Source: Sphingobacterium faecium (GTDB lineage Bacteria > Bacteroidota > Bacteroidia > Sphingobacteriales > Sphingobacteriaceae). Taken from it: DNA of 64,000 bases. The stretch spans positions 1-64,000 of the forward strand of contig NZ_QBKH01000005.1 in the NCBI RefSeq assembly GCF_003054045.1. The letters run 5' to 3'. The notes under the pieces are model-generated. The model was not told the DNA's origin and ran no database searches. It saw only the letters and a list, made by a program, of their open reading frames with translations. Numbering within the stretch: position 1 is the stretch's first letter; each line of letters starts with the position of its first letter. Below, one piece after another: positions 30,882 to 35,850 of this stretch. The position numbers and the translations under genes were made by a program.

Positions 30882-31778
30882 TCAATTTAAAGATCTATAT
30901 TTAGTAGGTGAAATGCCTACTTTTTGTTTGAATAATCTAGTGAAATGCTGCGGATAATTGAATCCGAGTTCATAGGCAATCTCACTAATGGTTTTTTCAT
31001 GATCAAATATTCGTTCCTTTGCTAAATCAATAACCTTTTGATGTATATACTCCTGTGCTGTTGTACCCATTTCACTTTTAATAAGATCACCGAAATAATT
31101 AGCGGAAAGATTCAGTTGGGAAGCACAATAGGAAACAGTAGGCAGACCATGAGTTGATGCCCTATGTTCTGAAAAATAAGTATGTAATAAATCTTCAAAT
31201 TTTTCTAATATACCTTTATTGGAATCATCTCTAGTGACAAACTGTCGATCATAGAAACGGGTACAATAGTTTAGAAATAATTCTATATTGGACGTAATCA
31301 AGGTTTTGCTATGTTTATCAATACTTTGTTCCATTTCATATTGCATCTTGTTAAAGCAGTCTAAGACCATTAATCGCTCTTTTTCAGACAAGTGCAATGC
31401 TTCATTGGTATCATAAGAAAAGAAACTATATTCGTGTATTTTCTTACCCAATGAGGTCCCCTTAATCAGATCTGGATGAAAAAGCAATGCCCATCCTGCG
31501 GGTTGAAAAGTCGTTACATCAGGTTGAATACCGAGCAGCTGTCCGGGAGCTATAAAAACTAAAGTACCTTCCTGAAAATCGTAATTGTTGCGACCATACT
31601 TCAGTTCACCACATTTTAGCTCTTTGAGATAGATGGCATAAAGCCCAAAGTTAAATGTTTGTGCAGGCATCGGTATTGCTTTTGATAAATCGATAACCGT
31701 AATCAATGGATGTAAAGTTGCTACACCACGCATTTTATTGTAAGTATCGACATGATCTATTTTGATGATTTTTTCCAT
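30882..31778 (-). CDS. AraC-family transcriptional regulator
   Basis: A 298-residue protein. The N-terminal half (about 1-170) is a cupin-like sensor ('LVFIAPGQLLGIQPD'). The C-terminal 100 residues form the two helix-turn-helix motifs of AraC/XylS proteins: 'QLNLSANYFGDLIKSEMG' and 'ISEIAYELGFNYPQHFTRLFK', followed by 'VGISPTKYRSLN'. Target and inducer are unknown; AraC-type proteins of this kind in Bacteroidota often control a neighbouring gene, but no obvious partner lies beside it. A link to arabinose genes is not supported, since the operators here fit the NUDIX regulator. Confidence 0.92.
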   Translation of the reverse strand: MEKIIKIDHVDTYNKMRGVATLHPLITVIDLSKAIPMPAQTFNFGLYAIYLKELKCGELKYGRNNYDFQEGTLVFIAPGQLLGIQPDVTTFQPAGWALLFHPDLIKGTSLGKKIHEYSFFSYDTNEALHLSEKERLMVLDCFNKMQYEMEQSIDKHSKTLITSNIELFLNYCTRFYDRQFVTRDDSNKGILEKFEDLLHTYFSEHRASTHGLPTVSYCASQLNLSANYFGDLIKSEMGTTAQEYIHQKVIDLAKERIFDHEKTISEIAYELGFNYPQHFTRLFKQKVGISPTKYRSLN

Positions 31779-32059
31779 ATCATTTTATCATAATCATTCA
31801 AAATTAAGCAATTATCCTGCGACTCCGATGCAATTGATTAGGAAACGGTGATAATGGTATGCATTTCTGTAATCAATATAAGGGGTATTCTTTTTTTTAA
31901 CTGTAGTAAGATCGGCTATCAGGTGCAAATATTTTATATTTTTTTCAAAAGCTCTGTTAAAATATACACAATAAAGTCTTAGATAACGAAAGTATGATTA
32001 GTGATTTCAATTTTACTTTATTTTTTTTATCTATTTTTTCCCTACTTCAAAAAAAGTCT

Positions 32060-32067
32060 TATATTTG
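32060..32067 (+). promoter_or_regulatory. Predicted -7 promoter element for rtcB-prfH leader
   Basis: TATATTTG is an exact TAnnTTTG match, 42 bases before a short reading frame with a GGAG ribosome-binding site. No good -33 TTG was found at the expected distance. Transcription would start near 32074 and give a leader of about 160 bases up to the terminator. Confidence 0.5.
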
Positions 32068-32108
32068 TCCCGATAAATAATAAAGACCCTTTAAACGGAG
32101 AAAACAAA

Positions 32109-32183
32109 ATGTATATAGTTCGTATCGTATCATTTAACATTACTGCAATAGATGCGGTAGTGATTCTTCGTGCCCAGATATAA
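32109..32183 (+). CDS. 24-codon leader peptide, candidate attenuator peptide for rtcB-prfH
   Basis: A short reading frame with GGAG seven bases before its ATG, an unusually good Shine-Dalgarno for this genome. The peptide starts 'MYIVRIVSFNITAIDAVVIL' and has 11 Ile, Val or Leu out of 24 residues. It ends 23 bases before an intrinsic terminator. Its last codons (32163-32173) can pair partly with the left arm of that terminator, so a ribosome reaching the stop codon would favour termination, and one stalled earlier would favour readthrough. This is the classical attenuator layout. Leaders rich in branched-chain residues normally precede ilv genes, which are not seen here. Confidence 0.5.
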   Translation: MYIVRIVSFNITAIDAVVILRAQI

Positions 32184-32206
32184 GAGATTTTTCAAATCAC
32201 AATATT

Positions 32207-32235
32207 AAAAGCCCGAAGATGATTCGGGCTTTTTT
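32207..32235 (+). terminator. Intrinsic terminator/attenuator upstream of rtcB
   Basis: Stem GCCCGAA/TTCGGGC (32211-32229) with loop GATGA, extended by AAAA/TTTT and followed by a run of six T residues. It lies 112 bases before the rtcB start. A frame-extended start for rtcB at 32219 would fall inside this stem, which argues against that start. Confidence 0.8.
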
Positions 32236-32347
32236 GTTTATTCATTTTTTTGCATTCAAATTTTCCCGAATTGAAATCTGTTGGAAACAATGTCCAACGT
32301 ATTTATGGTGTTTTTCAAACACATTTTTCAATTTTTATAATACAATT

Positions 32348-33739
32348 ATGGGAAGTAAAATCTCAGGGAAAGACCTTATAAAACTAGGTTTCCCACAAAA
32401 TAATACCATTAATATTGGTTTATCACAAATACAACGTTACAGAAAGCGGGAGAAGAAAGAAAAAGTGTTGCAAGAGGTAAAAGAAGTGTTATTAGATCCT
32501 GCAAAATTTAATAGTCATGGGGTCTGGGGCAAATTGTCAGAAAGTTTGGTCAAACCAGTTGAGGTACGATTGCATGAATTGCTGACACATCGTGTCCCCT
32601 TTTCAATCTTTGGAGAAGATATCATTGATGAGCGGGCAAAATTTCAATTATACGATGCCTTGAAGTTACCAATAGCTGTGGCAGGAGCATTGATGCCAGA
32701 TGCTCATTCGGGCTATGGCTTACCTATAGGCGGCGTGTTAGCGACTCATCAAGCGGTTATACCCTATGGTGTAGGTGTGGATATCGGCTGCCGTATGAGT
32801 TTATCCATCTTCGATTTACCAGCATCATTTATAAAAGGTAAAGATGCCATGATGTTGAATATTTTAGCGGAGCATACCAAGTTTGGTATGTACGAAACAC
32901 ATAAAAATAAAGGTGATCATGAGGTATTATCCCGATCAGAATTTCAAGATATTCCGCTCTTAAAAGGTTTGCAAGATAAGGCATATAAACAATTGGGGAC
33001 ATCTGGTGGTGGAAATCATTTTGTTGAATTCGGTATCATCGAATTGAAAGCACCACGTGCAGAATGGAAACTTGATCCCGGCTGTTATCTAGCAGTTCTG
33101 TCCCATAGCGGTTCTCGTGGACTAGGAGCAAACATTGCTAAGCACTATACTTATTTGGCTAGAAAACAATGTCCTTTGCCACAACATGTTCAGCATCTTG
33201 CGTGGCTGGATCTCCAGACACATGATGGACAGGAATATTGGTTGGCTATGAATCTGGCAGGAGATTATGCAAAAGCTTGTCACGAAAATATCCATCAGCG
33301 CATTGCAAAAGCTTTGGGTAAGCGTATCGCATTGACAATCGAAAATCATCACAATTTTGCTTGGAAGGAGACTGTTGATGGGCAGGAATGTATTGTACAT
33401 CGCAAGGGTGCTACCCCTGCTGCTCAAGGTACATTGGGTATTATTCCTGGCTCGATGACCGCTCCAGGATTTCTTGTCGAAGGTCTAGGAAATCAAAAGA
33501 GCCTAAACTCTGCTTCGCATGGAGCAGGACGTTTATTGTCAAGAGCTGACGCAAAATCAAGTTTCAGCAAAGCAGAAATGAGGAAGAATTTAGTAGATGC
33601 GGGAGTTCAACTTATGGGTGGGAGTATGGATGAATCACCGATGGCTTACAAGGATATCGATCAAGTGATGAATCTACAAAAAGAATTAGTACAGGTTTTG
33701 GGTGTTTTTAAACCCAAGTTTGTTCGTATGGAAAGTTAA
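32348..33739 (+). CDS. rtcB: RtcB-family RNA ligase, RtcB2-like partner of PrfH
   Basis: A 463-residue GTP-dependent 3'-phosphate RNA ligase. The start at 32348 ('[10 protein letters not shown]') is chosen because the longer frame runs through a terminator. Active-site features: '[15 protein letters not shown]', 'VGVDIGCRM' with metal ligand C148, '[10 protein letters not shown]' (H224), 'SHSGSRGLG', 'ENHHNFAW', '[10 protein letters not shown]', and H391 in '[10 protein letters not shown]', the position guanylylated in characterised RtcB enzymes. The stop is 6 bases before prfH. RtcB copies paired with PrfH in E. coli have been shown to reseal 16S rRNA cut in the decoding centre, which indicates ribosome repair rather than tRNA splicing as the role. 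Confidence 0.9.
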
Positions 33740-33744
33740 CATAT

Positions 33745-34362
33745 ATGGAGGTATATATACAATTAAGTTCAGGAAAAGGTCCTAAAGAATGTGATTTTTT
33801 CCTTACGCATGTGTTAGGCATCTTTCAAAAAGAAGCCTTTAAAAAGCAGATACAAGTGACTGTTATCGATGAAGATAAAAGTGGAAGTGGTTTAATACAG
33901 TCTGCGGTATGTAAATTAACTGGCGTCGATATCGATGTCTTTCTGCAATCATGGAAAGGTTCATTATTATGGATTTGTGAGAGTCCCTTTCGCAGTTCTC
34001 ATAAAAGAAAGAATTGGTTTATTGGCCTTTTTGTGATTACAAAAGAAAAAGAAATAATCCTATTGGAAAAAGATATTCTCTATCAGGTCATGCGGAGTTC
34101 CGGTGCAGGAGGTCAACATGTAAACAAGGTAAGTTCTGCTGTTAGAGCACTTCATATGCCTACAGGAATCACCACTGTTGCCATGGATACCAGATCTCAG
34201 TTACAAAATAAAAAGTTGGCAAAGGATCGTCTGGCACAAAAATTAATGCAGTTGCAAAATCAATCGGCACAACATGATATCGATAAGCAATGGCAAAATC
34301 ATGCTGAAATTCAACGGGGTAATCCGACTCGTGTTTTTAAGGGCATCCATTTCAAATCTTAA
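33745..34362 (+). CDS. prfH: Peptide chain release factor H
   Basis: A 205-residue protein with a class I release-factor catalytic domain: the GGQ motif is at 122-124 in '[18 protein letters not shown]', followed by a basic C-terminal helix. The codon-recognition domain of RF1/RF2 is absent and the length is half of RF2, as in PrfH. PrfH is thought to release the peptide from ribosomes whose decoding centre has been cleaved, which frees the 30S subunit for RtcB repair. The 5-base gap to rtcB shows co-transcription. Confidence 0.92.
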
Positions 34363-34409
34363 TTTGGAAAGAAAACTGTTGCTGATCTTTCAAATATCAT
34401 GGCTCTAAG

Positions 34410-34436
34410 CCCCTTGTATCTGATGCAGGGGGTTTT
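34410..34436 (+). terminator. Terminator after prfH
   Basis: Stem CCCCTTG/CAGGGGG (34410-34416 with 34426-34432, one G-U pair) followed by TTTTG. Confidence 0.75.
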
Positions 34437-34592
34437 GTTTTGATAAGCTCAAGCTGAAAAATATGGTCACTCAACGACCTTTTACCGACTTTACAGTTTG
34501 ATTAATGTATAAAGTTTTACTATCTTGTTTAGGTATCAAAGCAGTGCAGTAATGGCTATTGCTTTATTTTTTTTAAACTTAATGATAGGGTA

Positions 34593-35270
34593 TTGGATAC
34601 AAGTAAATTAGATAATCCTGTATGGTTTTCACTTTCAGAAACTCATCGCGATAGCGCACTTGAATTTGATGGAGTAAAATTCTACAAGCCTCAGTATTGT
34701 CCTTTTGGTGGTTTTATAAAAATGGATCAGACTGCACAGTCTATAGCTGAATATGCTCGAGATACGTCCAATTTCTATGTTGTGGGTGATCAACCCAAAT
34801 TCAATAGTCCGATCATACTGCATCAAGAATTAGTTTGTAATCAAATGGTGCTTGATAAGGAGATATCGATAGCAATGGATGAACATATAGTCGATCTTCA
34901 TGTCGATCACCATGATGATCTCCTCAACTTAGTCAATTTAGTTCAACCTGGATATTTCAAAAATAAGACTTCTGAATTGGGGAATTATTATGGTATATAT
35001 AAAGACAGTCAACTTGTTGCTGTCACAGGTGAACGGATGAAGATGAACGCTTATACAGAAGTAAGTGCTGTGGTCACACATCCTCGTTATACGGGTCTTG
35101 GCTTTGCTAAAAAATTAGTTGCACATACTTGCCACCAGATATTTTTACAAAATAAAGTACCTTATCTACATGTGGCAGAAAATAATAGCGGTGCTATCAA
35201 TCTCTACGAAAAGCTGGGATTTAAGACGAGAAGAAAAATAAGTTTTTGGAACTTAATTAAACCAGCGTAA
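34593..35270 (+). CDS. GNAT-family N-acetyltransferase
   Basis: A 225-residue protein whose C-terminal 120 residues show the GNAT fold: 'VTHPRYTGLGFAKKLV' (acetyl-CoA pyrophosphate loop, a variant of RxxGxG/A) and 'LHVAENNSGAINLYEKLGFKTRRK'. The N-terminal 90 residues are less typical. The only start compatible with the full protein is the TTG at 34593; there is no in-frame ATG until residue 43. Acceptor is unknown. It is separated from prfH by a terminator and so is an independent unit. Confidence 0.82.
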   Translation: MDTSKLDNPVWFSLSETHRDSALEFDGVKFYKPQYCPFGGFIKMDQTAQSIAEYARDTSNFYVVGDQPKFNSPIILHQELVCNQMVLDKEISIAMDEHIVDLHVDHHDDLLNLVNLVQPGYFKNKTSELGNYYGIYKDSQLVAVTGERMKMNAYTEVSAVVTHPRYTGLGFAKKLVAHTCHQIFLQNKVPYLHVAENNSGAINLYEKLGFKTRRKISFWNLIKPA

Positions 35271-35537
35271 GGGAAGGGATTTCGCTCATTAGTTAATGAG
35301 GTAACTATTTTAAAATCTTGACCAGAACACAGCGTGCTGAGGCTCCTTATTGATTCAAAAGCCTTATTTGAGCCTTTGATGCGTATTTCTGTATAGATCG
35401 AAGTCTTTCTTGGACTGCTTCTTAGCTTTTTGTGACTACTTATTGACGACCTTTAATCCCTATTTAGGAACAAAGAATCGAAAGTTAGAACGTAGGGGCA
35501 ACAGCTCAATAACTTGTAGTCCCTTATTTGAAAATGG

Positions 35538-35850
35538 CTGTCCAAGTTTCTCTACAAGTGATACTTGTTTTGGAAATGACTGTCCAAGTTTCTCAACAAG
35601 TGACATCTATTTTGGAAATGACTGTCCAAGTTTCTCAACAAGTGACATCTATTTTGGAAATGGCTGTCCAAGTTTCTCAACAAGTGATACTTGTTTTGGA
35701 AATTGCTGTCGAAGTTTCTCAACAAGTGACATCTATTTTGGAAATTGCTGTCGAAGTTTCTCAACAAGTGACACCTATTTTATAAATTGCTGTCGAAGTT
35801 TCTCAACAATTGACACCTATTTTGGAAATAGGGACCGCACTTTCTCAACT
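35538..35850 (+). repeat. 42-bp tandem repeat (minisatellite), about 7.5 copies
   Basis: Units start at 35538, 35580, 35622, 35664, 35706, 35748 and 35790, with a partial unit at 35832; the core is CTGTCCAAGTTTCTCAACAA. Copies differ by a few bases (CCAAG or CGAAG, ATACTTG or ACATCTA). Because 42 is divisible by three, several frames stay open: one reads 14-residue units ending 'SQQVTSILEM', another 'CPSFSTSD' units, and the minus strand 'HLLRNLDSHF' units. None has a convincing start or domain, so no gene is called. It may be the relic of a repetitive protein tail. Confidence 0.85.

Follow-up and report, generated by a model that had tools for sequence, protein, structure and literature searches.

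The window analysed here is a stretch of 64,000 nucleotides from Sphingobacterium faecium (NCBI RefSeq assembly GCF_003054045.1, contig NZ_QBKH01000005.1), and the locus of interest lies on its forward strand. Read directly from the sequence, the order of elements is TATATTTG, an element that we call A, a 24-codon leader frame, an intrinsic terminator, an element E, and then the genes rtcB and prfH; the leader frame, the terminator and the two genes that an earlier, sequence-only reading of this DNA had described are all present. The leader ORF (32109..32183, + strand) begins with ATG at 32109, ends with the stop codon TAA at 32181-32183, and encodes the peptide MYIVRIVSFNITAIDAVVILRAQI. The rtcB gene (32348..33739, +) encodes an RNA ligase of the PrfH-associated kind (RtcB2; PF01139, E 4.6e-81), and its start is taken to be ATG 32348, the ORF listing beginning the frame at an earlier ATG. 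The protein matches both NF007153 and TIGR03073 below their cut-offs, and the TIGR03073 score under the cut-off indicates a divergent PrfH-associated subfamily. After a gap of 5 nt follows prfH (33745..34362, +), encoding peptide chain release factor H with a TIGR03072 match above the cut-off (E 3.2e-67; PDB 9mor and 7sa4), so that we see an rtcB directly followed by a prfH of TIGR03072, the arrangement by which an RtcB2-PrfH repair operon is recognized. A second intrinsic terminator (34407..34435, +; terminator scan) lies 3' of prfH. When 31700-34700 was compared with Rfam 15, nine matches were obtained at E up to 1, none of them at its own gathering score. Elsewhere in the window, a tandem array at 35527-35829 (42-base unit, 7.2 copies) lies inside a frame rich in CPSFSTSD repeats.

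The element TATATTTG (32060..32067, +) conforms to TAnnTTTG, which we take to be the Bacteroidota-type -7 promoter element. For the comparison of leaders we used 87 loci, chosen by an ORF filter that leaves the frame free. TAnnTTTG stands 46-55 nt 5' of the leader ATG in 50 of these loci, as against 1.2% of shuffles, and 37 are without an exact match; the promoter element claimed for the window is thus present at a spacing that recurs among relatives. A separate promoter between 32236 and 32347, driving all rtcB transcription, had been named as the observation that would speak against control by the leader. No TAnnTTTG occurs in that interval of the window, nor in any of the 85 stretches of 110 nt downstream of the terminator. 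A sigma-70-like TATAAT at 32336-32341, ending 6 nt 5' of rtcB, remains a candidate at the level of chance, the region containing 14 such sites where 12.4 are expected.

Several elements can be distinguished in the leader RNA. A (ACGGAGAA, 32095..32102, +) lies before the leader ATG, pairs with B according to folding and covariation, reads ACGAAGA in many relatives, and is also similar to a Shine-Dalgarno sequence. B (UUCUUCGUGC, 32164..32173, +) is the antiterminator strand, spans codons 19-22 and can pair with either C or A. Inside the leader ORF and 5' of B is P1 (32138..32162, +), a possible pause hairpin detected by the hairpin scan and in relatives, whose pairs are retained despite changed letters in 16 leaders of the same genus; in other genera it is seen by eye, with unrelated letters. 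C (AAAAGCCCGAAGA, 32207..32219, +) forms the left arm of the terminator and D (32222..32235, +) its right arm with the U tract, both identified by the terminator scan and by covariation, and the terminator AAAAGCCCGAAGATGATTCGGGCTTTT at 32207-32233 is followed by T. Finally, E (TCCCGAATT, 32264..32272, +), conserved 3' of the terminator in the 87-locus count, is complementary to D, and at least seven consecutive Watson-Crick pairs join the two in 48 of the 87 loci, compared with 105 of 4350 shuffles. Since E is present solely in readthrough RNA, it should not block termination at D. In several genera E also tracks the changes of D, as CCCGAAAU with AUUUCGGG illustrates.

A, P1 and E are additions to the sequence-only reading, which had seen the last leader codons pair with the left arm of the terminator. 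That pairing is borne out: UCUUCG at 32165-32170 faces CGAAGA at 32214-32219, with GC:GC added across a U.C mismatch, and the elements involved are conserved in relatives. The fold of 32075-32240 is more stable than expected by chance (z -4.16; 0 of 200 shuffles as stable), and the best fold of the window leader combines A:B with C:D. The B:C pairing of the window is among the weakest of the loci, at -10.2 kcal/mol, and its C:D has -16.7 kcal/mol.

In other genera the letters of B and C change together. Flavobacterium has CUUCG-U-GGCUU as B and AAGCCCGAAG as C; Chryseobacterium and its kin have GGUUU and AAACC; and Tenacibaculum, Lutibacter and Polaribacter have GACUU and AAGUC. Both terminator-proximal pairings were counted on 22 aligned leaders (alignment A5), with slid pairings and shuffles as controls. 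For B:C, 93.6% of cells form a pair (20.9-62.3% when slid) and 13 cells differ on both sides at once, a number that 0 of 500 shuffles reached; for C:D the figures are 96.7% (18.7-70.2% when slid) and again 13 cells. Both covariations run through columns 126 and 127 of A5, which belong to C and change together with B as well as with D. Six of 22 rows lack a pair at one of the two columns of B:C, and the numbers of pairs and of pair types altered on both sides do not exceed the shuffles. Because MAFFT misaligned A, the models exclude this element and its pairs were counted with a script; A:B proved to be paired in 660 of 783 cells over the 87 loci, against 281-372 when slid. Related sequences inflate such cell counts, and for this reason the changes in A:B were counted on a tree of RtcB (61 rows, built by a quick method, with 14 of its 58 inner branches starred): the pair A6:B-1, which occurs as A-U, C-G, U-A and U.G over the 87 loci, changed at least nine times, and 60 of the 61 rows keep a standard pair. 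A swap test, in which a leader's own B beat the mean of foreign Bs for its C in 49 of 63 cases and a foreign B often paired equally well, is only moderately favourable because many genera share the same C.

Covariation keeps A:B, B:C and C:D all possible, and the choice between antiterminator and terminator that had been proposed for the window is upheld in both B:C and C:D by compensatory changes across genera. An antiterminator and a terminator that are mutually exclusive and conserved, the mark of an attenuator, are therefore found here. These changes also bear on the simplest explanation of the locus, namely that the terminator is just leaky and gives constant low expression, with the leader ORF as tolerated noise. 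Although the predicted fold of the window, in which C:D is the most stable structure at equilibrium whatever the ribosome does, would suit such a terminator, a plain terminator has no need of compensatory changes that keep B:C and A:B across genera, and we consider this explanation most improbable.

How far does the leader accompany these genes? A search for PrfH covered 149 genomes, 90 of them from the window's genus; 43 upstream regions were fetched, and the 32 with a related rtcB at the expected place, together with the window, make 33 loci. A and B are present in all 33. In 31 of the 33, a count made without an ORF filter, the frame set by the ATG that follows A contains CTT-CGT-GC(T/C), with GGT once, and reaches its stop 2-5 codons on. 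In L040, B lies in a different frame, which still closes soon after; L059 has a frameshifted leader of 47 codons; and two of the 33 loci, L035 and L040, are without a standard terminator. A scan of named genomes extended to 575 relatives, and the best 80 RtcB loci of 575 were retained, 79 of them titled as Bacteroidota and one as a Limnohabitans bin (L203). The strict layout A-ORF-B-C-D was found within 2.5 kb upstream in 60 of these best 80 RtcB2 loci; among the 63 with a prfH the number is 54. Both fractions are descriptive and no test, since the pattern was derived from the same loci and widened after odd ones. No instance of the pattern turned up in 80 stretches lying 3' of the rtcB start (303,592 bases), and 1 of 80 reverse strands (495,552 bases) gave a match. 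By eye, the layout is also seen in L183, L187, L192 and L216 and is ambiguous in L185, L180 and L193; the sequences of L195 and L200 end early. Thus, both the order of frame, terminator and rtcB and the codon-level conservation of the leader, to which the sequence-only reading had looked for confirmation in related genomes, are observed, and the combination of promoter, short ORF and intrinsic terminator before structural genes, which is characteristic of a ribosome-mediated attenuator, is present.

The leader lies more than 600 nt 5' of rtcB in 23 of the 60 strict-layout loci, and in 18 of those 23 another gene was seen between leader and rtcB. Where such a gene intervenes, the leader thus stays ahead of the first gene of the operon, and the intervening third gene is possibly a further part of the ribosome repair operon. 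In L157, L164, L165, L170 and others this gene encodes a protein of 225-275 aa, the copy in L165 being without a Pfam or PADLOC match, and in L188 and L197 a protein of about 450 aa, which is PcfJ-like in L188.

Two profile models of the leader were used for searches, R1 on the 149 genomes and R2 on 395 genomes. R1 gave 36 matches at E up to 1.3e-7, of which 32 lie at loci with a full prfH (one, in G057, with a broken rtcB); the other four are in G064, where rtcB is kept and prfH was not detected, in G048 and G038, where a prfH fragment exists, and in G080, where neither gene was detected. Seven weaker R1 matches that were opened (L118-L124) had no rtcB-prfH in their ORF listings by eye. R2 gave nine matches at E up to 8e-8, all within about 4 kb upstream of a prfH, and 11 further weaker matches, with 17 of 26 PrfH genomes lacking a strong match. 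In some of these genomes the operon appears to be decaying, with the leader still recognisable and rtcB or prfH broken or undetected (L003/L032 in G057, L116 in G048, L115 in G080, and L077 in G038).

B is in frame with the ATG in 86 of the 87 loci, in 69 of 86 leaders the stop comes four codons beyond LRx, and the residues encoded by B are LRA, LRG or LRD according to C. From this conservation of the frame we infer that the leader is translated. The residues themselves are another matter: in 31 independent leader pairs, the stretch between the ATG and B has 35 synonymous changes where 39.7 would be expected without selection, and 113 other changes where 108.3 would be, and the changes fall 46/51/51 on the codon positions. 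Since the residues are neutral, yet the frame and the position of the stop are kept, it is the frame that matters and not the residues, and the switch most likely reads the transit of the ribosome rather than an amino acid or an arrest peptide.

This contrast weighs against a leader peptide that acts as a nascent-chain arrest sensor for one drug or metabolite and opens the terminator by its stall. Such a sensor could work in the same RNA frame, with its stall at about codons 1-15, and a second leader type, standing before a divergent RtcB2 clade, does keep a similar peptide by eye (MTEQIYISSLSLIA, MTEQFYISSLFIAA). In the window's family, however, the residues from the ATG to B change at the neutral rate, so that the conserved peptide expected of an arrest leader is not seen there, and the conserved LR(A/G/D) tracks the RNA pairing and changes with it. 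We regard arrest as a quite unlikely basis for the window's leader family. The other peptide-based possibility, which the sequence-only reading had itself raised, is an amino-acid attenuator left from an ilv-type operon, in which a shortage of Ile, Val or Leu would make the ribosome stall. It arose from the composition of the window leader, 46% Ile/Val/Leu, a value equal to the highest among the 87 leaders. Over all 87, however, the Ile/Val/Leu fraction has a mean of 0.23 and a minimum of 0.11, the longest run of a single residue is 3, and no conserved run of regulated codons is found. The leader model has one strong match in the window's genome, the rtcB-prfH leader itself, the next-best match (E 0.014) covering model positions 91-134, which hold the terminator; and relatives keep the leader before rtcB-prfH or before the gene ahead of rtcB. 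An ilv or any other amino-acid leader is rejected on the residue content and the absence of codon runs in the 87 leaders, and an ilv leftover has next to no probability left.

A further alternative is control of the terminator by a ligand of the leader RNA, either a protein or a small molecule (feedback by RtcB or PrfH is conceivable), with the ORF being incidental. It would find a use for P1 and E, which are conserved and whose roles a ribosome-based model leaves unexplained, but an incidental ORF would hardly keep its frame in 31 of 33 loci and its stop at a fixed distance from LRx in most leaders despite a neutral peptide, and no Rfam family matches at gathering score. We give this alternative only a slight chance.

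Our preferred reading, to which we would assign a probability of roughly 0.8, is that the leader before rtcB-prfH is a translation-coupled transcription attenuator and senses whether a ribosome gets to the end of its 24-codon decoy frame. When the leader is translated to its end, a ribosome positioned at the stop codon would cover B, C:D would form, and transcription would end before rtcB. When the leader is not translated, A could pair with B and the terminator would form again. A ribosome halted at about codons 1-15 would cover A or what follows it and leave B free; the free B would take C as C is made, the terminator would be blocked, and rtcB-prfH would be transcribed. In other words, starting the leader without finishing it would be the state that opens the operon, and cut, drugged or starved ribosomes would each bring it about. 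Readthrough would then follow the state of the ribosome, and damaged, slowed, drugged or nuclease-cut ribosomes would presumably be the natural signal. The part of the model that we hold least firmly is the suggestion that A acts as a lock.

We folded five leaders with a ribosome masked at each codon (ATG = codon 1). In the predicted fold of the nascent window RNA, B pairs with C when the ribosome is at codons 1-15, to about one half at codon 16, and not from codon 17 on. Once D has been made, C:D is predicted to win at every ribosome position in the window, L160 and L213; L047 behaves as a partial equilibrium switch, with B:C up to 0.46; and in Lutibacter L181, B:C is predicted at 0.75-1.00 for codons 1-16 and C:D at 0.97-1.00 otherwise, the RNA without a ribosome choosing C:D; this choice, like the best fold of the window with its A:B and C:D, would agree with a lock by A. 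The switch would accordingly depend on kinetics in the window, whereas in L181 it would operate close to equilibrium. With no ribosome, and with C made and D not yet, the predicted folds give B:C at 0.97-1.00 and A:B at no more than 0.03 in all five leaders, so that A could act as a lock only if it paired with B ahead of the synthesis of C. RtcB2-PrfH mends ribosomes cut in the decoding centre, and if the switch does read completion of the frame, the damage would itself call up the repair genes and no dedicated sensor protein would be needed. Exact compensatory mutants are readily derived from the covariation, so that the idea lends itself to direct testing.

In the attenuators of the trp, his and ilv operons, a leader ORF precedes alternative antiterminator and terminator structures, and the position of the ribosome decides between them. 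The leader described here follows the same logic, but it has no regulatory codon run, its peptide is neutral, and ribosome repair genes lie downstream. The closest precedent is from P. aeruginosa, where a leader, PA5471.1, lies 5' of armZ (PA5471), an RtcB-like RNA ligase gene adjoining PA5470/prfH (PMC12057347, PMC13041342, PMC3575510). The model given in two of these reports is that complete translation leads to a 3:4 terminator and a stalled ribosome to readthrough (PMC12057347, PMC13041342), and ribosome-targeting antibiotics are described there as inducing PA5471.1-armZ-prfH (PMC12057347, PMC13041342, PMC3575510). There too, an RtcB-like gene stands next to prfH behind a leader ORF, as found in the window; Pseudomonas belongs to another phylum, and the two systems are likened by design, gene content and published descriptions. 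They may differ in one respect: deletion of the PA5471.1 stretch is reported to have raised ArmZ, whereas A may keep the untranslated operon off here. One review states that leader-peptide control of an anti-repressor appears to be unique to MexXY. The RefSeq notes on two broken genes of the RNA ligase RtcB family in E. coli mention drug-inducible mexXY expression.

In toiL-topAI of E. coli, a uORF senses ribosome-targeting antibiotics and stalling on it raises downstream expression (PMC12121999). The effect of toiL is exerted on translation and by that route on Rho, unlike that of the leader in the window, which has an intrinsic terminator. The RtcB2-PrfH operon of E. coli ATCC25922, which consists of the same two genes as in the window, is described in PMC9223846 as protecting against colicin E3, a toxin that cuts 16S rRNA in the decoding centre; a search of that text gave no account of how the operon is controlled. 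In the literature searched, no paper treats rtcB together with a leader and attenuation in Bacteroidota, and no title listed deals with the control of a Bacteroidota rtcB. The Bacteroidota leader is a new form of an already known control around the same genes. With a little more confidence than doubt, we further suggest that control by ribosome transit is general for bacterial RtcB2-PrfH, that leader ORFs unrelated in sequence but alike in logic arose, or diverged, on several occasions in front of this operon, that the peptide of the largest family is uninformative, and that the armZ leader of Pseudomonas is a specialised offshoot later borrowed for MexXY. The leader PA5471.1 may then represent a variant of the way in which ribosome repair is ordinarily controlled, which would widen its meaning.

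Other leaders before rtcB-prfH are of other kinds. None of the 11 divergent PrfH loci L063-L073 has the window's leader type; by eye, six have another leader ORF, G129 has a third kind, and four have none. We compared the end of the ORF (last 33 + 6 bases) with the left arm of the terminator, and 4, 6, 3, 1 and 17 of 2000 shuffles match the complementarity in L264, L268, L271, L272 and L266, respectively, where L264 and L268 come from one genus and L271 and L272 from another; the figures are 43 of 2000 for L063 and 206 of 2000, not significant, for L265. Among 16 further loci, a script finds an ORF before a terminator in seven, and L273, one of the seven, has a leader like that of the window. 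Some divergent loci thus seem to have leaders of like design, with no evident sequence shared with that of the window. The peptide of the second leader type, MTEQIYISSLSLIA and its kin before divergent RtcB2 (L064, L067-L070, L073 and L267), looks conserved by eye between two families.

Candidate leader ORFs are seen by eye upstream of the loci of an E. coli plasmid, Methylosinus and Aureibacter, and none was seen in Skermanella; a + strand terminator scan found no terminator in L251 (the E. coli plasmid) or L252. The leader ORFs of Aureibacter (L252, 1354-1386) and G129 (L063) both start with MLV(Y/L)HSN and perhaps represent a further related leader family. Before the E. coli rtcB2-prfH (L251, 1494-1541) there is a 15-codon ORF (MTNPLSMTLCRPFQD) with a strong Shine-Dalgarno sequence. 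Among L251 and L255-L258 it is identical in four haplotypes and has lost its ATG in the fifth (L258), and its middle codons are able to pair downstream.
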